From Pagrus major (Eukaryota > Chordata > Actinopteri > Spariformes > Sparidae), in contig NC_133230.1 in assembly GCF_040436345.1 (NCBI RefSeq), positions 29,632,551 to 29,696,550 on the forward strand: 64,000 bases of DNA. Direction: 5' to 3'. The notes under the pieces were generated by a model. The model was not told the origin of the DNA. It saw only the letters and a program-made list of their open reading frames with translations, and made no database searches. Made by a program: the position numbers and the translations under genes. Numbering within the stretch: position 1 is the first letter of the stretch; each line of letters starts with the position of its first letter. Positions 7,163 to 60,599 of this stretch are shown piece by piece.

Positions 7163-7939
7163 TCACTTGCTCATAGACAGGCTGTGTAATGTAGAGGTAG
7201 TGGTTGGCAAAGGTTGGCAGAGTGAGCAAGGGCAGGGCATGCCGGGAAAGTGCCTGTAGGAGCTGCTCAGGTGGAGCGGGTCCTTTAGAAGGCCCTGGAC
7301 CGGAGCATGAAACCCCAAGAAGCTGGCAGATGGAGGTGAGTGCGGGGCCGGGACTGCAGCTGTAGAAGTGGGGTGATGCTGCAGAGCTGAAGGCGTGCTG
7401 CCCACCAGAGAGTGCAGAGACTGGGCAAGAGGATGCAGAGAGAGGTGGGCTGTGGGAGCCGCAGGGGTGATAGCAGGGTGGGCAGCGGTGCGGCTCGTAA
7501 TGGCAGCGCTTCCACCATAAACATCCCCGACCAGCTTCTTCATCTCCTCCAAGGAGCTGGACAGCATGAGGATGTAGTTGCGGGCCAACAGAAGGGTGGA
7601 GATCTTGGACAGCTTGCGGACTGAAGGCCCCTGAGCGTAGGGCATGACTTCTCTCAGGCCGTCCATCGCCTGGTTCAGATCGTGCATCCTTTTCCTCTCC
7701 CGGCTGTTGACTTTCAGTCTCAGGTCTTGCACCTCGTCCTTGTTGAGATCAGACCTGATCTTGGTCTTACCGCCCATGCTGCAGCACTCCGTCGTGGTCT
7801 GGCCGGCCTCGCTATCGGCTCCGTTTTCTCGGCAGTATGTCTGGAACATCTTGTTGGAGAAGAAGCTCCCAGCGGAGTCATCCACTACCAGGTCTGGGGA
7901 TGAAGCGCGGCTGCCGGTGGAGCCAGAGTCAGAATCCAT
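7163..7939 (-). CDS. olig4: Oligodendrocyte-lineage bHLH transcription factor, Olig4-like
   Basis: Single-exon gene of 258 codons. Residues 73-136 form an Olig-type bHLH: basic region [12 protein letters not shown] (78-89), helix 1 [14 protein letters not shown] (91-104), loop RKLSK (108-112), and helix 2 [14 protein letters not shown] (113-126) followed by [15 protein letters not shown]. The N-terminus [16 protein letters not shown] is the Olig start signature, so I chose the ATG at 7939. The frame stays open for 33 more codons upstream to 8038, but this is probably 5' UTR. The C-terminus keeps the Olig motif [10 protein letters not shown] (233-242) after a Pro/Ala/His-rich linker. Olig proteins are nuclear E-box-binding neural regulators that act as homo- or heterodimers. 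The FFSNKMFQ segment and short N-terminus differ from Olig2 and Olig3 and fit Olig4 best. Paralog assignment is by recall; Olig family membership is certain. Confidence 0.9.
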
Positions 7940-8114
7940 CTTGGATAAAACAGAGGAAAGTTGAAAAAATGGTCCAAAAAAGCTAAGAGCTTGAGTTTTC
8001 TGTGGATGCTTCCTAGCTCTTCGCTGCAGTGTCACCACAGTTTGTGCTTCTCAGGCTGATGATCCACAGGAGTGTGTCTGTCTAAACTGTCACCCTCCAG
8101 GCCCACTGGGGTGC

Positions 8115-48280: not shown

Positions 48281-48520
48281 CCTGTTTGTAGGGGAGGGGG
48301 GAATTAATTCACAAAGTCTACCGGCATCTTTTAAATGAGAATAATTTCTCGCTTGCAGGGCTGTAGCCAGGATTTTATAAATTCGGAGGTCATGCGTAGG
48401 GCTACTAGAAGGAAAAGCAATAAAAGGAAATTTAAAAAATCGTATTATTAAAAAAATCTTTAGCTGCACTATGACCCAGAAGAGACTGACTTCTCTCCCA
48501 TACATGACTACATACTATAC

Positions 48521-48549
48521 TATATATATATACATATACATACATATAC

Positions 48550-48641
<92 letters not shown>
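48521..48641. repeat. (TA)n microsatellite flanking the transposon, left
   Basis: An almost pure TA run of about 120 bp with TACATA variants at its start. It directly abuts the terminal repeat of the large transposon. A TA run of about 35 bp abuts the other end, so the element sits in, or carries, TA repeats. Confidence 0.95.
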
Positions 48642-48644
<3 letters not shown>

Positions 48645-48673
48645 GGCATGCCGTTCAGGAAATTAATCTTTGA
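48642..48673 (+). repeat. Left terminal inverted repeat of the large transposon
   Basis: 32 bp identical to the complement of 60534-60565. It contains the 8-bp palindrome GGCATGCC three bases from the end, then GTTCAGGAAATTAATC. Identity stops at base 33 (C versus A), after which both sides continue into the array. Confidence 0.93.
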
Positions 48674-48977
48674 CTATATTGAATGAAACTTTGAATATAT
48701 GGAATGAATTGTTGAATATATTGAATGAATTCTTGAATATATGGAATGAACTTTGAATATATTGAATGAACTTTGAATATATGGAATGAACTTTGAATAT
48801 ATTGAATGAATTCTTGAATATATGGAATGAACTTTGAATATATTGAATGAACTTTGAATATATGGAATGAACTTTGAATATATTGAATGAATTCTTGAAT
48901 ATATTGAATGAACTTTGAATATATTGAATGAATTCTTGAATATATTGAATGAACTTTGAATATATGGAATGAAACTT
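48674..48977 (+). repeat. Left subterminal tandem array (about 16 units)
   Basis: Units of 19-21 bp of the form ACTTTGAATATATTGAATGA, alternating with a TATGGAATGA variant and an ATTCTTGAATATATT spacer variant. The centre of each unit is the palindrome AATATATT. They run in the opposite orientation to the right-hand array, as expected of transposase-binding subterminal repeats. Open frames through it in two minus-strand frames are artefacts of the period. Confidence 0.93.
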
Positions 48978-48980
48978 GAT

Positions 48981-49010
48981 TGACGTCATCAAGGCACTGC
49001 TGCCATCTTG
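48981..49010 (+). promoter_or_regulatory. CRE and YY1-like sites in the HECT gene promoter
   Basis: 48981-48988 is the perfect palindromic cAMP-response element TGACGTCA. 49002-49010 is GCCATCTTG; its complement CAAGATGGC is the form of YY1 site that fixes the transcription start of mammalian L1. Both fall in the 58 bp between the last array unit and the ATG at 49036, so they are well placed to form a TATA-less core promoter. Binding is inferred. Confidence 0.55.
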
Positions 49011-49035
49011 TATTTTGCTGCTGCAAGAAGTGAGA

Positions 49036-52000
49036 ATGAGTCAGTCAGCTCGGAACCTTGTGGCAGCAATACTGAGCAATGAGGACATTATTAACTCATT
49101 GGCAAGTGCTTGTACGGGCCAAAATCCTCCCGATAGTACCCGTGCCCAATACCGTTCTCCTGACGAAGAAGTTCGCTCCCTTTTTAATCGTGGCAGGCCG
49201 ACTACAACAGGCCTCGGGCAAAATCTTGACAGAAGCATGCCTTCAGCCTCACAGGAGTGCCCCACAACAGTCCCTCTATACAATCTTCGCCCGTACACAA
49301 GTAAGGGCCCAAGACACAAGAGGTAAGAATAGCTAGGCTTTATTTAAAACTAGATTAGGGCTCCCATTACAGTGCATATAACGATATTCTATATTCTATA
49401 TCTTAGTGCAGATCTCCACCAGGCATGTGAAGTTAGAGCGGAACAATTCCGAAACATCAGTGCAATAAATGCACCTGATCTGTGCAGGCTCACGTCTTGG
49501 GCGACCTGAAGCGCTTAAAAATAAACGCTTCAGGTCGTAAGTGTAAATTTACACTTTTAGTCTTTCCCCACAATAATCGTGTAAACGCGAGGTTGATGCC
49601 CAATAAAAAAGGCACGTTAAACAAATATATTTAACAATATTTTGCAACAGGCGGAGTAGTGTGCGTGTGTGTTGATTTGTGGACAGAGAAGTGAGAAAAG
49701 AAGCTATGATGAGCCTCGGTAACACGGCGTCCCCTTCATAAAAAAGCAGAACTATTGACGGAATACTCTGCTGTGTGTAGAGGTCTGTACGTAGGTCTGT
49801 ATGGGTATACAATAGCCGCATGGTATCATTTTCAGGTGAATTTCATGAAGATAAAACATATGGCCGTGCGTAATGGCAATGCGCTCTGGCGCGGCACTTC
49901 TCCGGGACTGCGGATTTATCTGTGTATCAGCTGCTGCGGCTGCAGGGATTTCGTGAACTGAAAGAGAAGCTCTTCATATATTGTTTAGATACAATAAGAC
50001 CCACATTCATAGACCAATGAAGGCTGAATATTTAGTTTAGTATTGAACGTGTTTGATGATCAGCGACACATTGTGAGCTCTGGGCCCGTTACGCACACAG
50101 CCATCACTTGAACCGATACACACCACATACAGTATGTGTATATAGTGGAATCTAGATTAGGAGGAGTGATGAGTCAGTAGTAAATGGGGATATACGGTAA
50201 AATAGAAGATTCAATAAAATTGTTTTTTCAATGATACAGTGCGCCAAAATAGGCTGATTGGTCCAGTGGTATGAAATTAACTGCGGACAGACAGACAAAT
50301 GCATAATCCCCTCCAAGATTATGCCTGACAGATAATTACTATGGAATTAATTAATTAATTACTGCTGTATTAATCACTGTAACACAGTTTAATGGTATAC
50401 CATGGTAAGACACAAATGTTGCATATCAACCACAAAATATACAGTGTAAAATAAATTCACTGTTAACACTGCCTGTTTGTATACAGAATTATATATTTTG
50501 TTTAATGTTTCTAAGGTTTCAGGCACAAGGCAGTTCACGTTCTGTGGCTCAGTCCTTTTTCAAAGAGGTGATTCTCCTGCCAGACCACAAAGCTACACAT
50601 GTGCCGAGGCGTGCCAAAAAAGCTTGGCTTTTTGAAAACGGCCACATCAAGTCTGCCTTGGAATTTGGCTGTGACTGGGATTCTGACACAATAATGCAGG
50701 CTATAACAGCAGCCTTCCAGCCAGCTGTGGAGGGATGCAGGTAATTTTTGGAATTGTTTTGTTATATTTGTTACCTCTTTTCATTGGATTTTTGCAAGAA
50801 TACCACAACATATAATACTATGAAAGCTTCATTTTGAGTGCTTGTGTATTGTGAATTAAAATATTATTTTATTATTTTACATTCCCTTTTGCTGCTGCTG
50901 ATTTCCAACAGGCTTGCTGGGATATATAACAAGATGACCACACACATTTTTTCAATACATTATGGTTGTAAATAGCTCATAACAATTCCATTTAAGTTAT
51001 ACTGAACTGAGGCGTCCTAGTAGCTCACCTATTAGAGTGTGCACCCCATGTACTAAAGGCCAAGTCCTTCCCACAACAGCCGGGGTTCGAGTACAACCCG
51101 GGCTCTTTGCTTTGCATGTCATCCCCTCTCTCTTTCTCACCCTTTCCTGTCTGTCTTCAACTGTTGCTATCAAGTTAAATTCTGAAAAAATATCTTTTAA
51201 AAAGTTATACAAAATAACAGAAGTAAACTGAGGTTGGTTGAACTGAGAAAATGAATGTAAATGTCTGTGTTCATACAAATGATGTATTGAAAATAAATAT
51301 TTTCCTTGTACTGTAGTGTGTGCTCTTTTAGCTTCAACAGAAGTTTCATATACAGTGTGTTTTTCCTTCCTTTAGGTTACAAATCCTGCTGTCATGCTAC
51401 AACAAATTAGTTGAGCCATCCCTTACCCCCACACAGACTTTGAATGGAGACCTTGTCAAAAAGCTGTTTCATCAGAAGTCCATTTATGTCAGGCCTGACA
51501 AAATCATTTTAAGTGAGGAAAAAGAATCTGTAAGTATTACTGAAGATTTCAAGACATGTTTATGACAGTGGCAGTCACAATGGCAATACTGTAATTTACA
51601 CTTGATTTAAACAGTTACTTGTAGTATGCTCTGACATAATACAAAAGTCTGTTACAATGTTTTGTTGTCAGTATAGTCTAATGGATTCATAAAAGTTATT
51701 GTATTTATCTGTTTGCATTGACAGTCATGTTCTGATGGAGAAAGTAGCCGTACAAATGACCCTGGTTTGGCAGAAATATCTGACACTGACAAATGTGGTA
51801 AATATTTTTGTGTTTACACTGGTACATTATATGTTAAGTATTTTTAAAAAAATCAAATTTATTTTAATTAATATTTTTGTGCAGAAAAAAAATTAAATTA
51901 CACTTTTTTTAATCTGCCACGTAATACATGTATTGTTCAAGCCCTAAATGTGTTCTGATGCTCACTGTCAAATAAGGTAAATGTTACTCATAAGTTAATT

Positions 52001-55000
52001 TTCCATGTTACAGTTACAGTCATTGGTAGTGCGCCTGACATTTCCAAAGAAGTTGTCCCAGACATCTCCACTTCTGAGGCCCATTCCCTCTCCACTGGTG
52101 ACGAAGTTTTGTGGTGTTTTGCTACCCAAGATATTTGCACTGATGCACCTTCCATCCCAGCCGACACCTTCACCATGTCCACTAGTGCTGGTGCCATCAC
52201 TGCTGCTGAGACTCTCACCATGTCCAGTGGAAATCCTGCCATCTCCACTGGCAACACTCATGGCTTGTCAGTTGGCCCCACTGTCAATGCTAGCGGCAAC
52301 AGGCATTGTATCTTTGCGAATAACACCTCCGGTGTGTCCCATGGTCCCACTCAACCCAGTGCATCTGGCAAAAGTTCATCCAGCACATCCTACAGGTCCA
52401 TCTTTTCTAAATTTTTCATCTCATTTTTCAATACAGTATTATCAGCAAAGAACTATTTGCTATGTAAAGATATTGTGGAGTCATGGTGTCCTGAACAGAG
52501 AAGAAAGTTGCACTCCCTCTGGATTTGTTTTGATCTGAACCTTTCTGATAAATAAACCTCTGCCGGCCCACAGACTCTTGTACTGTAGTTCTAGCAAGTC
52601 CGTGGGTCCGTTCTGTTTCATTTGTGTATGTATCAGTCACGTGGTCAAGTTACACACTGTTATCACCACTTCATTGAGTGGGGCATCAGAGAGAAAGAGA
52701 GAGAGAGCAACAGTGGTAGAGTGACATAGAGAGAACAAGGAGAGTGAGCAGTGGTGGTGAAACAACTGGTGAATCAGAGAAATCAAAAATTTTTGTCTGA
52801 TTGTTTCATAGTGGTTTCATAAGCACAAATATACACACTGCCGCACAACCCCACTGCTGATTGTGTTGAGCTCTATATGAGAGCTCTTTAAATGATGTGC
52901 AGCCACTGCCTAACCCAGCACCACCCACTCTGTCCTCTCCACGTTTGTTTACAACAGACAGCAGTCAAATGGCATATATTACACCTTTAAATAATGCACT
53001 GTCCATTCAAGGCAATTCAAGTTATTAAACCATCAAGGAAGTTATTTGTCCTGTGGTAATGCAACTATCTGTGTGAACAAACATTATATGTGTACCTTAA
53101 TTGTAAAATATTCTTGTTTTATTTTGTAGTACATACCTTGACCTATTTGAGGAAGAATACCTCTCTGATGACCCTGATGTCCAGGAAGCCATTTCAAGGT
53201 CTTTAGATTCCAGCGCAAGTGAGAGGTCAGTAGAAGATATTATATAAAATCTAAGTGTTCTAAGTGTAATCTAAGTGTAATCCAGGATAACAATGACTCT
53301 CTTGCCTAGAGACAAGTAGCAATAAGCAAGCTGCAATCTACTGTTCTTTATCTGTTATCCAATCATTTCTGTGGTTTCATTTTGTCAACAATATACAGTA
53401 CAATAGAAAATCATGGTGTAAAACTTCTCTGAATGGGGATTACCCATGCCATAACATGCATTATTTTTCATGTGTATGTATGGCCCCCTTTACACCTGGT
53501 ATTAAAATGTGTTTTTTTGTGATCAGTTTGCAATCAGATAGCGCTTGACCACATACATTTACACCTGGTATTAATGTGCATCTCTGATGTCCACATCTAG
53601 ATCCAGTTGCTATCCGATCATGCGCCTTCCCATTAATATCACTTGACAAACATTTGCATCGGCAGACTCTTTTAATGTGTTTTTTTTACAACGTATTTCC
53701 CGCCTGCAGAGTTGTTGCATGTGGATTGGATGTGGTCAAGCGCTATCTGATCGCAATCCGATCACAAAAAGTGCATTTTAATACCAGGTGTGAAGGGGGC
53801 CGATGTGTATGATTTAGTAGTTTCAGCAACTCTTTGGATGAAGGGTGGTTTTCAGTGTTGTAAATTCTTCTCATGCTCTTTTCATTTTATGTGCGATATA
53901 TCAGTAGGTTAAGTACTTCTGGAAAAGCAAGAAACTCTTTCCCTTATCCCTTTACCTTATCACAAACATTTTTGGAAAATGGATTTTAATCAATATTAAT
54001 AACAATTTGTAGATGTTGGATTATAGTTCAGTATGTGAGTTATTGCCATTGACACTAACAACAAATTTGTTTTATTGTTTATTATTGTTTCAGTGATTTA
54101 AAGATGACTTTGGAGAGAATAATGGAGGAGATTTCATCGAGAGTAAACGATGACAACACTGTGCGCTTCAATATCATACGAAGAAGTGTGTGGGATGGAG
54201 CATCCAGAGCCATGGGCAGATCCAATTTTTCACCTGAGAAGAAGGTAGATGTCAAGTTTACTGATGACTATGGAATATCTGAGGGTGCCGTGGACAATGG
54301 AGGACCTACTCGGGAGTTTTTCCGACTCTGTCTTCATGAAATCAAGGACAAAATTGGCATCTTTGAGGGTCCACCTAATGCCAAAGTCCTCACATGCAAC
54401 TCCAAAGGTACTTATGATTAAATGAATTCTCAGTGAGGCCTCTATTGGATTTCTTTGGATCAATAAAAACTTTGAACCTGAAATGATTGATGATAATTAA
54501 TGATTGATGATGCAAGATTAATGTAAGACATTTCAGGTTTTTAATCTATAATACCTTTTTGGAAATTTACCGATTATTAACAATGATAAAAATTAACCTG
54601 AAAATTTCTGATGTAACCATTTGACATGTGATTTTTAATTTCATTTGATAACAGCGATGAAAGACAATGGATACTTCTATGCTGGCCAGATTATGGCAAT
54701 GTCAATTGCCCATGGGGGACAGAGTCCATGTTTCCTGTCTGAACTCTTGTATGAGTGTCTTCAAAAAGGTCCGGACAATGTAAAGGTCAGAACTGAACAT
54801 ATTACTGATGAGGAAACAAGGTCACTGGTGCAGTCGGTGAGCATATTTTCCTTTGATTCTATTGCATTTATAAACAAATTATTCATTTTATATGCACTCA
54901 TTAACATACACATTAAACATAATTAATCTTAATAAAAAATGAATTAAAGTCAATAAATATTTACTGTTCTCATATCCTAATGTTATTTTAATATTTTCAG

Positions 55001-56804
55001 ATCTTACAAGCTGAGACTGAATCACAACTGCAAGATGCAGTTTCACAGGCAGCCAGCTTGATCAGTCTTGCTGGTCACAATGTTCACATAACACTGCAAA
55101 ACAAACAAGAGACTGCTTCGGACTTGGCTCACTGGTATGTCCTCCAGCGGACCCGTGCACCTTTTGAAAGGTATGTTCATATATGACCACATGCTATAAT
55201 TGTACCCTGGCAGAAAAATTAAGGCTAGTTGATGTCATTGAAACTATGTTACCACTGTATACAAACAATTTCAATGATGGATGTAGAGTTCCATTTTATA
55301 GTGCACCAGTGCAAGTCAAAGTATTTGAAGTATTTTTTTTTGTTTGAAATTCATTGTGGGGTTGCCCACATGGCTCTGTTGGTAGAGCATGTGCCCCAGG
55401 TACAGCCCTTTGCTGAATGTTATTCCTCCTCTATCTACCCTCCTTCCTGTCCATCTTCAGCTATCCCTATAATAAAGGCAAAAAGCCCCCCCAAAAAATC
55501 GAAAAAAAACCCCAAAAGAAATTCCTCACTAAATTGAACATTAAAAAAAACATCTGAACAACACATTCCAATTTGTTTCCCTTTTAATAGGTTCAGAGAT
55601 GGCCTAATGTCTCTAGGTGTCCTAGATGCTCTCCAGAGATACCCTCTACAGGTGAAGTGCCTTTTCGTGAAGGTTGAAAAGAGTTTAACAGCAGCTGATG
55701 TAGAGAATCTCTTCCTGATCATTCACTCTGAAAGAGGGAGTAATGCATTCCAAGAAGAGTGCCGTACCCTGGCTTTCTGGCAAGACTACCTTCAGGATGC
55801 TGAATGTAAGTTTGGCATTTTGGACAGTGTTTCAACAAGACATTATTCTTTAAACTGTTTTGACTGCATCATAGTAGTACATGACATTGGTAAAAAATCA
55901 TTTTATTTGAGATGCTCCACTATGTAAGGCAGTTTATATGAATTATAAATACATTAATTGGAGCAGCAGTAGTGTTTGTCGGCAGTTTGAATCCAAAATT
56001 TTTTTTTAAAAATCCCAAAATCTATTTTTTGTTTGTTTGTCCTGCTCCTCTGTGGACTTTGCCCCGAGGAGGTTCAGCCCATCTTTAAGATTCGCTAACT
56101 CGGACCGATTCTGTTGGGTGTTATTTCAGGCCAGTCGGGTGCTTTTGAACCTGCTTATCCTCTGCCTTTGTTTTATAAAGGTGTCCTGATTGTTTATAGC
56201 ATATTAGGAACTTGAGGTACTTTTCCACAGCACAGCCTAACTCAAAACACAGGTGTTCTCAGGGCTACCAGGGCTACCTAGCTGCTTCTCCACTGAATAG
56301 TTAATCTTGGATGACACCAATAGCTTCTGGCCTGTGACAGCTCTCTTTTTAAATAAGGTTTATGTGATTTATTTCATGCAGCTTTAAAGCATTCCAAACC
56401 TGATTTTAACACAACATATTTCATTAGGTTACATAAAGTATATGATTGAAGTTTATAGTTTTACACAACACTAGTCTATGGCATTATGAGCTATCCTTTC
56501 AAATTACTGTGTCATTTCAAAAATAAAAACTACATAATTTAATTGTGTTACTCTCTTTTTATGTCTTACAGTTGAAAACGATGTATCTCTGGGGGATATT
56601 CTTGTTTTCTTCACTGGATGTGACAGTGTTCCAGCACTGGGATTCTCTCCAAAGCCAAGCCTTGAGTTCATCACCCATTCCCGATTTCCACTGGCGAATA
56701 CTTGTGAAAACATTCTTCGCATTCCAGTTAATGCAGTATACACTGCTTTCAAATCTGATATGGATTTTGCCATACGCAATTCACCAGGGTTTGGAAGAGT
56801 GTGA
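49036..56804 (+). CDS. Transposon-borne HECT-type E3 ubiquitin ligase, 776 aa, 11 exons
   Basis: Exons: 49036-49322, 50516-50740, 51376-51529, 51725-51797, 52014-52395, 53130-53225, 54094-54407, 54655-54836, 55001-55170, 55591-55805, 56572-56804. Every junction is GT-AG and all phases agree, giving 2331 nt with no internal stop. Residues 1-246 (MSQSARNLVAAILSNEDII... and VPRRAKKAWLFENGH...) match no domain I know. 247-373 are Ser/Thr-rich. 387-402 (DDPDVQEAISRSLDSS) fit the ubiquitin-interacting motif. About 425-776 form a HECT domain: VDVKF (457-461), DNGGPTREFF (473-482), and a C-lobe with FFTGCDSVPALGF and PLANTCENILRIP, the catalytic cysteine being C744. HECT ligases accept ubiquitin on this cysteine and pass it to substrates. 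The C-terminal half resembles fish proteins annotated as G2E3-like. The chosen ATG is the first after the array. The substrate is unknown; targeting of a host silencing factor is speculation. Confidence 0.87.
51011..51215 (+). mobile_element. tRNA-derived SINE in HECT intron 2
   Basis: The A-box-like TAGCTCACCTATTAGAGTG (51021-51039) and B-box-like GGTTCGAGTACAACCC (51083-51098) form a tRNA-like head. The tail CTTTGCATGTCATCCCCTCT then CTGTCTTCAACTGTTG and an A-rich end is a familiar teleost SINE 3' part. It lies wholly within an intron (50741-51375) and does not disturb the coding frame. Confidence 0.85.
53479..53802. mobile_element. hAT-like MITE in HECT intron 6
   Basis: Left end GGCCCCCTTTACACCTGG followed by TATTAAAATG. 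The right end in reverse is GGCCCCCTTCACACCTGG followed by TATTAAAATGCAC, giving inverted repeats of about 28 bp with one mismatch. It is flanked by ATGTGTATG at 53470-53478 and 53803-53811, an 8-9-bp target duplication typical of hAT elements. Internal CGCTTGACCACAT and its inverted GTGGTCAAGCGCTATCTGAT show extended dyad symmetry. No coding capacity. Confidence 0.88.
55362..55515 (+). mobile_element. Internally deleted tRNA-SINE in HECT intron 9
   Basis: TGGCTCTGTTGGTAGAGCAT is a strong A-box region. The B box is missing, and the body resumes at CCCTTTGCTGAATGTTATTC with the same CT-rich tail as the SINE at 51011, ending AATAAAGGCAAAAAG and a C/A-rich end. Without a B box this copy should be transcriptionally dead. 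Confidence 0.75.
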
Positions 56805-57787
56805 GAGGTAATATTATAGAGGGCTTGAGTTATGATGAGGATGTTTGTTTTTCAAAAATAATTGCTGTTATTTCATTTTGTTCTTCCTAGAGACAGTATT
56901 TACTTGAATAAAGGCATAAAGAAATATAAGTAGAAATGCTCTTTGTTACTTTCGAAGATATATTTCAAGCCATGGTTTTGTGTTTCAGATTTAATAATGT
57001 GCACTTGGTGAACTTTTAAGTTGATAAATGTGAGGCACTTCTTTTTGTATTGTAGTCAACCAGTCCTCCAACCTGAACAACTGTACGATGTCATTTATCT
57101 CCACCGTCTGATATGACCCAGAACAGCAATTGAGTGATTAGCGCAGATTATTCCCTCTAAATGTTATGGTAAGGCCTTCTTAATAAATGGTTGTATGTTC
57201 CTACTTTGTATGGACTGGTTCATTGTCATTTTTAGTGTCTACGAGATATATGTACCCCAGACTTGTCATATTTTTTCAATTTGAAAAACCATACACAAAA
57301 TGAATTTAGTTATAAGTTCATCTTTATCAATAGGGTTAAATAAATACATTATATATAATGATATATAATATAATCAGGGGTGGACAGTAACTAAGTACAT
57401 TTACCCAGGTATTGTTCTTAAATACAGATTTCAGGTCCTTTACTTGAGTCTTCGCATTGTATGAAACTTTATACTTCTACTCCGCTACATCTCAGTTTGT
57501 GTCAGTTTAGGGGTCCTGGCACGTATCTATATGGTGATAACATCACATTTTGTCATGAAAGAATATTACAAGCAAATCTTCTGTCCAAGGACCTGTACAC
57601 TCCTTTTGTCCACTGATATCCCTTAAACGGTACAACTGAAAGATTAATCATTTCAAACTGAGACTTGAAACCAAATAACAATGTTCAATTTTGTGATATT
57701 TCTCAAAATTACTTATTTATATCTGAGTCTATGTGACAATGTATGACACCGCAATAGTGTAACAACTGAATTACCCAAGCTAGCAGA
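56805..57787. other. Spacer between the convergent transposon genes
   Basis: AT-rich, about 1 kb. AATAAA motifs near 56909, 57180 and 57340 could polyadenylate the HECT transcript. 57375-57500 (GGGGTGGACAGTAACTAAGT...ACTTCTACTCCGCTACAT) is a fragment of the common fish MITE also seen at 36000-36150. No further gene seen. Confidence 0.6.
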
Positions 57788-58490
57788 CTATCTCTCAAGC
57801 AGTTCACATGCTCTGACAAAAAGTTCGATTCCATGATTTCCATCATCAGTGAAGGGGTTGATGGGCCTTAACTCCACATTCCACTGGTGAGCATAAGGGG
57901 GTTGCACAGGCACACGATTGAGTGGCCTTTGATGCTGAGGAAGTTGGAGCATTCCAATTGTCCACAGTTGCAGTGGGGACCGACTCTCCATTGTCCTCAA
58001 GCTGTGGTTGTTCCACTGGCTCACAAACTCATCCACAGATCTGTTAATTCTTGGATGATAAACATGGTGAAGAGCTGTAATGTGAAGAGGGTCAGTGCTG
58101 TCTAACAGTCCGAAATTTTCCATAAAGAGGAAAAGGTCTTTATAGTATCCTGACACCACCCTGTTTACTTCTGCCCACAATCTTTCGATCCTTTGATTGT
58201 GGACACTACGTCCAACCATGAAACTTCCTCTGTTTGCTCCTCGATTCTCAATCATGAACCGTGCAACATCAATGTTCTCGCTACCAGCATCACCCCTGAC
58301 ATGATGTGGCAGTCCAAATACATCAACGGCACCCTGGAAAAGATGCAAGGCAGTTGATGCTCGGTTGTCTGTGCAACATCTCAGAAAGGTAATGCAGCGA
58401 CTGTAGCCATCAACTGCTCCATGATACACAAATCCCCATGGATTTAACTTGTGGTTTGTGTCAATATGCCTGAAATAATAAGAAATGTGA

Positions 58491-58544
<54 letters not shown>

Positions 58545-59528
58545 CGTAATAAACCACACTGGATGTACATAAAAATGTAACTTAATTGACTAACTGTAAC
58601 TCACATTTATAAAACAACACATACCACACTTGATTTGGGGCAGAGACATTGTAGACCCTCCGCTGAATTGCCCTTCGTCCTCTCAAGGCTCGCCCCACTG
58701 GATCTACTGTTCTTAAACGCTCCCGTACCCGCCAACGCTGAACTCTGATTCCTCGTCCTCTCAAACCACCAGTGACATATGTCTCTCCGGAACCGGGGGT
58801 TTGTCTGAGAATCTCAGCAATAAGTCGATCCAGATCGACATTTGCAATGCCAGTGAAACTCCCATAGTCCACCAGACCGAGTTGTGTCCTGTGGTTGTAC
58901 AGTGTTCGGATGTTTACAGACAGCATCCGAGATATGGCCATCCAGCTAAATCCTAAGTCCCGCATGTGAATCAACTGAGCAGCTGGTATGTTGTACCTTC
59001 AAAGAGAAATAAATAAAATAAAAAACAAATGTGTTAATGTGTTAATTCATACATTGTGAATGAATTGTCTTATTACCTTGCAGCCTATAATGATTTTTTA
59101 TATAATAATACCTTATAATAAGTTTGTAACTTATTTATTGTACAATGTACTATAGAGATTACTCTTGGCCTGCATCAGCCTCCATCCCCGTACACTTTAA
59201 ATACTACTTACCTCGGCCTTCCTCTCTGAGATGCAGAATGAGTGCCCATGCCATGCGCTTGTACATCAACTTCCAGCTGGGATGTTATTTCCGCCAACAT
59301 CTCCCTTAGAGACTCGTAAATTCCTTCAAGAATGACGCATAATGTTCTTTCGGCAATGTTTTGTTGAACATTATTACTCATAAGAACTATGAATGTCGCA
59401 ATAATGGAAATATGATCCTCAAGGTGACGCGATATAGTCTCCAAACTGTTAGTGTCATTTGGAGTACAACCTGTTGCAAAAAAGTTTTCCAGTTCAAGAA
59501 AGTATTGGAATATTTCAACTGATGCCAT
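57788..59528 (-). CDS. Transposon integrase/transposase (D-D-E), 456 aa, 3 exons
   Basis: Minus-strand exons 59528-59212, 58996-58625 and 58469-57788 join GT-AG in phase to 1371 nt without a break. Residues 1-105 are a helical N-terminus (MASVEIFQYFLELENF...). GRPRYNIPAAQL leads into a helix-turn-helix (about 113-142: MRDLGFSWMAISRMLSVN, IRTLYNHR). The catalytic core is of the retroviral-integrase/IS3 fold: WHIDTNHKL (D233), DGYSRCITFL, GLPHHVRGDAGSEN (D290) and HNQRIERLW (E325), a D-56-D-34-E spacing. The PRINRSVDEF...WNNHSLRT and SPLQLW segments are typical of the integrase-core family widespread in fish and invertebrate transposons. There is no HHCC zinc finger or chromodomain. It should bind the terminal arrays/TIRs and catalyse strand transfer. 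The catalytic triad is complete, so it may be active. Which named superfamily it belongs to cannot be settled by eye. Confidence 0.9.
58492..58544. repeat. (ATT)n microsatellite in integrase intron 2
   Basis: About 17 ATT copies inside the 155-bp intron between integrase exons 2 and 3. Confidence 0.95.
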
Positions 59529-59532
59529 TTTG
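59524..59532 (-). promoter_or_regulatory. YY1-like motif overlapping the integrase start codon
   Basis: On the minus strand CAAAATGGC spans the ATG at 59528-59526. It is the same motif class (CAANATGGC) as the site at 49002-49010 upstream of the HECT gene. Only about 60 bp separate the ATG from the right-hand array, so the array end probably serves as promoter. Confidence 0.4.
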
Positions 59533-59591
59533 TAAAACCAGCAAATTCAGAAGGCTATCACTTTGATGAAAAAGATACAACGATGTTTTGA

Positions 59592-60533
59592 ATTTCATTC
59601 AATATATTCAAGGTTCATTCAATATATTCAAAGTTCATTCAATATATTCAAAGTTTCATTCAATATATTCAAGTTTCATTCAATATATTCAAAGTTTCAT
59701 TCAATATATTCAAAGTTTCATTCCATATATTCAAGTTTCATTCCATATATTCAAGTTTCATTCAATATATTCAAAGTTTCATTCAATATATTCAAAGATT
59801 CATTCAATATATTCAAAGATTCATTCAATATATTCAAGTTTCATTCCATATATTCAAGGTTTCATTCAATATATTCAACTTTCATCCAATATATTCAAAG
59901 TTTCATTCAATATATTCAAAGTTTCATTCAATATATTCAAAGTTTCATTCCATATATTCAAGTTTCATTCCATATATTCAAGTTTCATTCAATATATTCA
60001 AAGTTTCATTCAATATATTCAAAGATTCATTCAATATATTCAAAGATTCATTCAATATATTCAAGTTTCATTCCATATATTCAAGGTTTCATTCAATATA
60101 TTCAACTTTCATCCAATATATTCAAAGTTTCATTCAATATATTCAAAGTTTCATTCAATATATTCAAAGTTTCATTCAATATATTCAAGTTTCATTCCAT
60201 ATATTCAAGTTTCATTCCATATATTCAAAGTTTCATTCAATATATTCAAAGTTTCATTCAATATATTCAAAGATTCATTCAATATATTCAAGTTTCATTC
60301 AATATATTCAAGTTTCATTCCATATATTCAAAGTTTCATTCAATATATTCAAGTTTCATCCAATATATTCAAAGTTTCATTCAATATATTCAAGTTTCAT
60401 TCAATATATTCAAGTTTCATTCCATATATTCAAGTTTCATTCAATATATTCAAAGTTTCATTCAATATATTCAAAGTTTCATTTAATATATTCAAGAATT
60501 CATTCAATATATTCAAAGTTTCATTCAATATAT
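59592..60533 (-). repeat. Right subterminal tandem array (about 46 units) with higher-order repeat
   Basis: 20-21-bp units of the form AGTTTCATTCAATATATTCA, with CATTCCATATATTC, CATCCAATATATTC, AAGATT and AAGGTT variants. Orientation is inverted relative to the left array. The variant pattern of 59714-59940 is repeated at 59941-60167, an offset of 227 bp (11 units), showing recent block duplication. Two plus-strand frames stay open for over 300 codons through it only because the unit lacks stops. Confidence 0.93.
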
Positions 60534-60562
60534 TCAAAGATTAATTTCCTGAACGGCATGCC

Positions 60563-60565
<3 letters not shown>
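60534..60565 (-). repeat. Right terminal inverted repeat of the large transposon
   Basis: 32 bp, the exact complement of 48642-48673, ending in GGCATGCCATA. Followed directly by a TA run to 60599. Confidence 0.93.

Positions 60566-60599
<34 letters not shown>
60566..60599. repeat. (TA)n microsatellite flanking the transposon, right
   Basis: About 17 TA copies beyond the right terminal repeat, much shorter than the left TA run. Confidence 0.95.

Follow-up and report, generated by a model that had tools for sequence, protein, structure and literature searches.

A putative IS3EU-superfamily transposon of Pagrus major that pairs a HECT ubiquitin ligase gene with an integrase-like transposase

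We analysed a 64-kb stretch of Pagrus major DNA (the window), which lies on contig C16 of the genome and holds, at positions 48642-60565, an 11,924-bp mobile element with two genes, one for a HECT ubiquitin ligase and one for an integrase-like transposase (hereafter the integrase). We found that HECT is a recurrent companion of the integrase in divergent families of the same genome, and not a one-off cargo. From sequence comparisons, we consider it highly probable that the element is a recently active, apparently autonomous transposon of the IS3EU superfamily, with a long-standing, element-encoded HECT partner that would act in trans. A sequence-only reading of the window had described a DNA transposon that joins a full HECT ligase, catalytic cysteine included, to a D-D-E integrase; the domain matches bear out this description, and the coordinates it gave were exact. 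That reading had also presented the ligase as a striking cargo. The ligase is indeed present, but the word cargo understates its place, because the convergent pair recurs in divergent families.

Two convergent genes between inverted repeats

Both genes are predicted models, with splice sites picked by consensus and frame. The HECT gene has 11 exons on the plus strand (49036-56804) and the integrase gene has three exons on the minus strand. All ten introns of the former and both introns of the latter are GT-AG, and the exons join in frame to encode 776 and 456 amino acids, respectively. Both genes point inward, as expected from the earlier claim of two convergent multi-exon genes without a frame break. 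The features of the element and its flanks are given below, with all exons taken from the spliced models.

48516..48641, no strand: left flank, (TA)n microsatellite target (tandem repeat and flank reading)
48642..48673, plus strand: left terminal inverted repeat, 32 bp, beginning TATGGCATGCCG, 32/32 identical to the right end
48668..48973, plus strand: left subterminal array, 15.0 copies of a 20-bp unit, 14 core motifs (tandem repeat finder)
49036..49322, plus strand: HECT exon 1, with the start codon; the corresponding part reads N in the copies on C1 and C8
50516..50740, plus strand: HECT exon 2, with most of an N-terminal module (about amino acids 107-177) also seen in other families
51376..51529, plus strand: HECT exon 3
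51725..51797, plus strand: HECT exon 4
52014..52395, plus strand: HECT exon 5
53130..53225, plus strand: HECT exon 6
54094..54407, plus strand: HECT exon 7, start of the HECT domain (also Pfam)
54655..54836, plus strand: HECT exon 8
55001..55170, plus strand: HECT exon 9
55591..55805, plus strand: HECT exon 10
56572..56804, plus strand: HECT exon 11, with catalytic Cys744, the end of the C-lobe and the stop codon (also family alignment)
57788..58469, minus strand: integrase exon 3, with catalytic D233, D290 and E325 (also family alignment)
58625..58996, minus strand: integrase exon 2
59212..59528, minus strand: integrase exon 1, with the start codon at 59528
59593..60546, minus strand: right subterminal array, 46.3 copies of a 21-bp unit, 42 core motifs (tandem repeat finder)
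60534..60565, minus strand: right terminal inverted repeat, 32 bp, 32/32 identical to the left end
60566..60599, no strand: right flank, (AT)n microsatellite target (tandem repeat and flank reading)

The Pfam HECT model matched amino acids 489-774 of the ligase (E=1.7e-19) over model positions 8-304 of 306, and this near-complete match, together with Cys744, indicates a complete HECT domain with its catalytic cysteine. In HECT ligases the catalytic cysteine sits in a TCxN motif, and a phenylalanine at the -4 position is important; the window protein has this phenylalanine. Like the HECT E3 ligases Rsp5/NEDD4, E6AP and UBE3C, it combines a near-complete match to the HECT model with a catalytic cysteine in the TCxN context. 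It differs from them in being distant in sequence (the closest solved-structure match in a sequence search was Rsp5, E=1.8e-9), in having an N-terminal part with no Pfam match above the cut-off, and in being carried by a transposon. Shortly 5' of the HECT start codon there is a TGACGTCA palindrome (48981-48988), and intron 6 of the gene holds about 320 bp (53482-53801) with inverted arms of 36-44 nt, resembling a nested miniature transposon.

The integrase matched the Pfam model rva_4 with E=3.8e-76. The IS481 and IS3 transposase models also matched, at E=1.9e-11 and 4.3e-9, both under their curated cut-offs, as did the phage transposase family phrog_157 (E=1.5e-9). A profile built from the integrases of six families found solved retroviral integrases, with a best E of 9e-8. 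The putative catalytic residues are D233, D290 and E325, with 34 residues between the last two, and by eye only two cysteines lie ahead of D233, such that an HHCC motif is absent. When IMG/VR was scanned with an alignment of the integrases, 45 pattern matches came up, of which 0 were confirmed as relatives. The catalytic core is thus like that of the bacterial IS481 and IS3 transposases, whereas the window element differs from those systems in its introns, long terminal inverted repeats (TIRs), arrays and accessory gene.

The perfect 32-bp TIRs and the long inverted subterminal arrays reported from the sequence-only reading were both recovered. The TIR reads TATGGCATGCCGTTCAGGAAATTAATCTTTGA, and beyond its 32nd base pair there is one mismatch, after which the similarity goes on. 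The two arrays are inverted relative to each other, their core motifs are mostly spaced 20-21 bp apart, and the HECT and integrase start codons lie 63 bp and 65 bp inward of the inner edges of the left and right arrays, respectively. Because the arrays are inverted and regularly spaced, we infer that a catalytically active integrase most likely binds the TIRs and the numerous 20/21-bp subterminal repeats. It would then excise the element and join it to target DNA with a 6-bp stagger; integration by this protein is well supported by family.

The window family (family 1) would favour microsatellites of alternating purine and pyrimidine, (TA/CA)n, as its target. The right ends of all six family-1 copies abut AT- or AC-rich dinucleotide repeats, and purine-pyrimidine alternation reached at least 23/24 in five of the six right flanks (18/24 in the C7 copy), against a background of 0.26% of 79,156 positions. 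Four duplications that flank relatives perfectly (CTATAC, GTGATA, GTGTCT and GTATTT) limit the preference to the window family. We conclude that it is a trait of this family plus one copy of a related family, F2 (C7:32.97 Mb), and not of all relatives.

Copies of the element and its superfamily

The genome searched comprised 786 Mb in 25 contigs, a size that, like the Olig-type frame described below, fits a teleost fish. We searched it with the terminal repeat at a tolerance of 3 mismatches per 24 bases, and each of the seven matches listed was exact: the two ends in the window and single ends on C1, C2 and C7, with two on C8. Two of these belong to long copies, on C1 and at 18.2 Mb on C8, which are 99.3% identical to the window element over 9.8 kb and 99.0% over 10.3 kb, respectively. 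The reading frames of the integrase and of HECT exons 2-11 are open in both copies and contain 0 coding indels. Coding differences numbered 3/3415 against 20/5722 non-coding in the C1 copy (Fisher p=0.016) and 5/3415 against 21/5715 in the C8 copy (Fisher p=0.067). The number of core units in the array varies by copy, with 42 on C16, 22 on C1 and 35 on C8. The remaining matches are a truncated copy at 34.15 Mb on C7 (C7:34151226), where the sequence fetched shows a 98% identical integrase but no match to HECT, and two end-only relics (C2:35172187 and C8:23872919), with 0 gene matches in the 9.9 kb fetched at each. The low divergence among copies points to recent activity of the window family, and the window element itself is apparently young, intact and autonomous.

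Instead of a single mobile unit, the region could belong to a host locus or reflect an assembly artefact. Long copies number only three, and the left parts of two of them are unread, which would suit such an explanation. The TIRs are exact, near-identical copies with different right flanks lie on three chromosomes, and related elements are flanked by perfect 6-bp duplications. With these results, we rejected a host-gene or artefact origin, which we regard as hardly credible.

The window element begins and ends TATGGCATG...CATGCCATA, which fits the TA..TA, TAYGG..CCRTA type of IS3EU. Relatives have the ends TATGGGG and TACGGTGG (two families), and family F2 begins with a variant, TATGAGGG. Across the IS3EU candidates, the 6-bp duplication is perfect in four relatives, 5/6 in the window copy and mismatched in the F2 copy C19a. 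In PMC10045372 and PMC12730594, IS3EU (IS3EU/GingerRoot) is defined by TAYGG..CCRTA termini, 6-bp duplications and an IS3/IS481-like core; the TA..TA termini, TIRs longer than 30 bp, 6-bp duplications of the relatives, and D-D-E core without HHCC seen here are all alike. The sequence-only reading had offered IS3EU- or Ginger-like groups as candidates. TATGG..CCATA ends, 6-bp duplications in relatives, similarity to IS3/IS481 and the absence of HHCC favour IS3EU over Ginger1, and thus the element fits the known IS3EU superfamily by its ends, catalytic core and the duplication length in its relatives.

Ginger1 was rejected. PMC2836005 gives it 4-bp CCGG/CCGT duplications, TGTNR ends, a zinc finger and a GPY/F motif, and neither the 4-bp duplication, the ends nor the HHCC zinc finger is present here. 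According to the same source, Ginger1 transposases can contain OTU or Ulp1 protease domains, and on that account Ginger1 is the nearest precedent we found for an integrase-type transposon with ubiquitin chemistry. Both are integrase-related D-D-E transposons tied to ubiquitin/SUMO chemistry, but in Ginger1 the protease domain is fused, whereas the ligase of the window element has a gene of its own, convergent with that of the integrase. The word HECT is absent from PMC2836005.

The HECT gene also sets the window element apart from described IS3EU members, and the word HECT is absent from the text of PMC10045372 and PMC12730594. Where the window element has HECT, IS3EU families of fungi have genes for TET/JBP and alpha-kinase, with transposase and kinase in opposite orientations (PMC12730594). 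A search of the open-licence PubMed Central literature found 35 papers that mention IS3EU and no paper with IS3EU and HECT together, which is weak evidence given that scope, and looser searches for HECT and transposons gave nothing on topic among the matches listed.

Pairing of HECT and integrase in divergent families

To measure the association, loci were built from integrase and HECT matches (89 integrase and 78 HECT); only the best-scoring candidates were listed, and the counts are lower bounds. The pairing count left out 12 of 61 HECT rows, which lie inside three family-1 copies, as well as one Pfam row (C6:12236583). HECT lies within 8 kb at no fewer than 27 of the 89 integrase loci, and all 27 pairs are convergent. 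In 200 random placements, which ran only up to the outermost match on each contig, integrase-HECT neighbours numbered 0.37 on average and 3 at most, compared with the 27 observed. A second count, which informs on orientation only, used 46 HECT loci hand-picked as transposon-like or near an integrase, with 16 integrase rows added from among the best-scoring matches listed in a further search. There, 31 of the 46 lay within 12 kb of an integrase, 30 of these convergently, and all 29 within 8 kb were convergent. Two integrase loci lacking a HECT match in the pairing count have convergent HECT pieces from amino acid 415 onward when read in detail (C9:699243, E=3e-49; C14:3261395, E=1.5e-39 and 1.5e-18). 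The genome-wide pairing led us to reject a one-off cargo. Since many distantly related elements of the same genome also carry HECT, the gene is probably a working part of these transposons, and the comparisons suggest this role rather than accidental cargo.

Three related elements are complete, with both genes between matched ends and a perfect 6-bp duplication.

C23:851983-862198: duplication CTATAC
C2:35246113-35253234 (C2:35.25 Mb): duplication GTGTCT
C24:22258747-22268652 (C24:22.26 Mb): duplication GTATTT

The C23 element has inverted arrays of its own, with a unit unrelated to that of the window element, and the array spacing in family F2 is 21 bp. In the aligned segments, relatives are about 33-64% identical to the window protein for the integrase and 40-53% for HECT. 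D233 is kept in 10 of 11 integrase loci (the exception, on C11, has G in its place), and D290 and E325 are kept in all 11. For two F2 loci a second alignment, past the exon end, shows N at D233, and the exon-3 alignment was counted. The catalytic cysteine is kept in all nine family HECT fragments that span the site, two of which hold stop codons. Over short segments from nine families, the identity matrix of the integrase correlates with that of HECT (Mantel r=0.59, p=0.004), as shared descent predicts.

By comparison with the full F2 copy C19a (C19:2259532-2267439), two other F2 copies, at C7:32.97 Mb and C19:25.38 Mb, have lost the HECT C-lobe through a single shared deletion of 2.35 kb. These two copies show 99.1% identity over 6.1 kb, have different flanks and keep an open catalytic integrase exon of 281 codons. 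The C19 deletion copy has a perfect 6-bp duplication, GTGATA, and the C7 deletion copy sits in (TA)n. Because the HECT-deleted copies lie at two separate sites, an element can probably do without HECT in cis, consistent with an enzyme that is either diffusible or dispensable. The earlier reading had named copies with the terminal arrays but without the two genes as a finding that would speak against it. There are indeed two end-only relics, a truncated copy and the two HECT-deleted copies, but all of these resemble products of decay or deletion, and the association is unbroken.

Several observations weigh against a recently active transposon with a long-standing HECT partner. The integrase loci contain duplicated copies and blocks, by which pair counts are inflated and are not independent events. 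In the pairing count, 62 of the 89 integrase loci had no HECT match. Seven of them were read in detail, and apart from the two given above, one has a weak convergent piece from amino acid 415 onward (C9:112459, E=1.1e-4), in three the convergent match is confined to the N-terminal module (E=1e-14 at C11:31811356, and about 3e-6 in the deletion copies at C7:32968274 and C19:25385045), and nothing was found for HECT at the truncated C7:34151226. In one case, HECT and integrase lie 11 kb from each other and do not converge. The left parts of the C1 and C8 copies read N, such that their left terminal repeats, duplications and HECT exon 1 are unreadable. The target duplication of the window copy is 5/6 (ATATAA/ATATAT), inside a (TA)n microsatellite that the sequence-only reading had not mentioned, and the flanks of C19a are mismatched (GAATTG / GTGATT). 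No ends were recovered at 8 of 14 other-family loci, several of which were fetched as 9-10 kb, one of them half N. Many relatives have stops in their frames. Further, the two HECT-deleted copies have seemingly moved, so the ligase may be dispensable.

HECT could also play no part in transposition, as selfish or neutral baggage that was captured a single time and has been maintained by linkage. Deletion derivatives survive and some relic HECT fragments hold stop codons, as baggage would allow. All three young copies have an open HECT frame, which in two of them refers to exons 2-11, and coding changes are fewer than non-coding ones; the cysteine is kept 9/9 in fragments only 40-53% identical to the window HECT, and 27/27 pairs are convergent. 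Taken together, we consider baggage improbable and retain a HECT partner that would work for the element.

Three transposon-type HECT loci (C20:2939597, C19:2349006 and C22:1761454) have no listed integrase match within 12 kb, and could be relics or possibly domesticated genes. The flank mismatch of C19a contrasts with the deletion derivative on the same contig, and C19a may be a recombined copy or have changed later. By eye, integrase fragments on C10, C18, C6, C21, C22, C23, C3 and C9 recur as oppositely oriented pairs with a spacing of about 25-27 kb; these may reflect a large duplicated block, which could be subtelomeric or a giant element.

Candidate roles for the ligase

We infer that the ligase acts in trans and most likely ubiquitinates a protein that limits transposition. 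This target could be a host factor for silencing or repair, or it could be the integrase, in the stable complex with DNA that would remain on the arrays after strand transfer; the sequence-only reading had likewise suggested host factors or the integrase itself. If the target is a host factor, its ubiquitination would let the element escape repression, by analogy with the TET/JBP dioxygenases of fungal IS3EU families, which are thought to undo methylation silencing. The accessory genes of those families (PMC12730594) argue for such a role, and HECT-deleted copies at two sites suit a diffusible, trans-acting product. The co-divergence of HECT and integrase is equally expected from plain co-inheritance or from an integrase substrate. 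We give a host target slightly less than even weight.

The ligase could instead act on its own integrase, with ubiquitin marking the array-held strand-transfer complex for extraction so that host repair finishes the reaction, or limiting the integrase dose. Many integrase molecules would find sites on the 14 + 42 core repeats, the identity values of HECT co-vary with those of the integrase over nine families, and some distant families have the N-terminal module in common. The HECT-deleted F2 copies, which seem mobile, speak against this role, though they could receive HECT in trans from a full copy. We regard an integrase target as possible, at about one chance in three.

The ubiquitin/SUMO-related accessory genes of transposons described in PMC2836005 are proteases (OTU, Ulp1). 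Here, a ligase of a family usually seen as host machinery travels convergently with an integrase-type transposase across divergent families. We tentatively propose that, in a vertebrate branch of IS3EU, HECT may be a dedicated second component of transposition, co-inherited with the integrase over deep divergence and directed in trans at either the transposition complex or host control, and that a whole class of annotated fish HECT genes may belong to transposons and not to the host. This raises the testable question of whether DNA transposons use ubiquitination to complete transposition or to disarm the host, for which the near-identical open-frame copies are a natural system, and fish HECT annotations are worth checking for flanking TAYGG ends.

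Two intron stretches of the HECT gene, at about 51010-51170 and 55358-55540, resemble by eye tRNA-derived short interspersed nuclear elements; ARAGORN found no tRNA gene at either stretch. Elsewhere in the window, an open frame of 295 codons at 7163-8050 on the minus strand includes a bHLH region, presumably of the Olig type.

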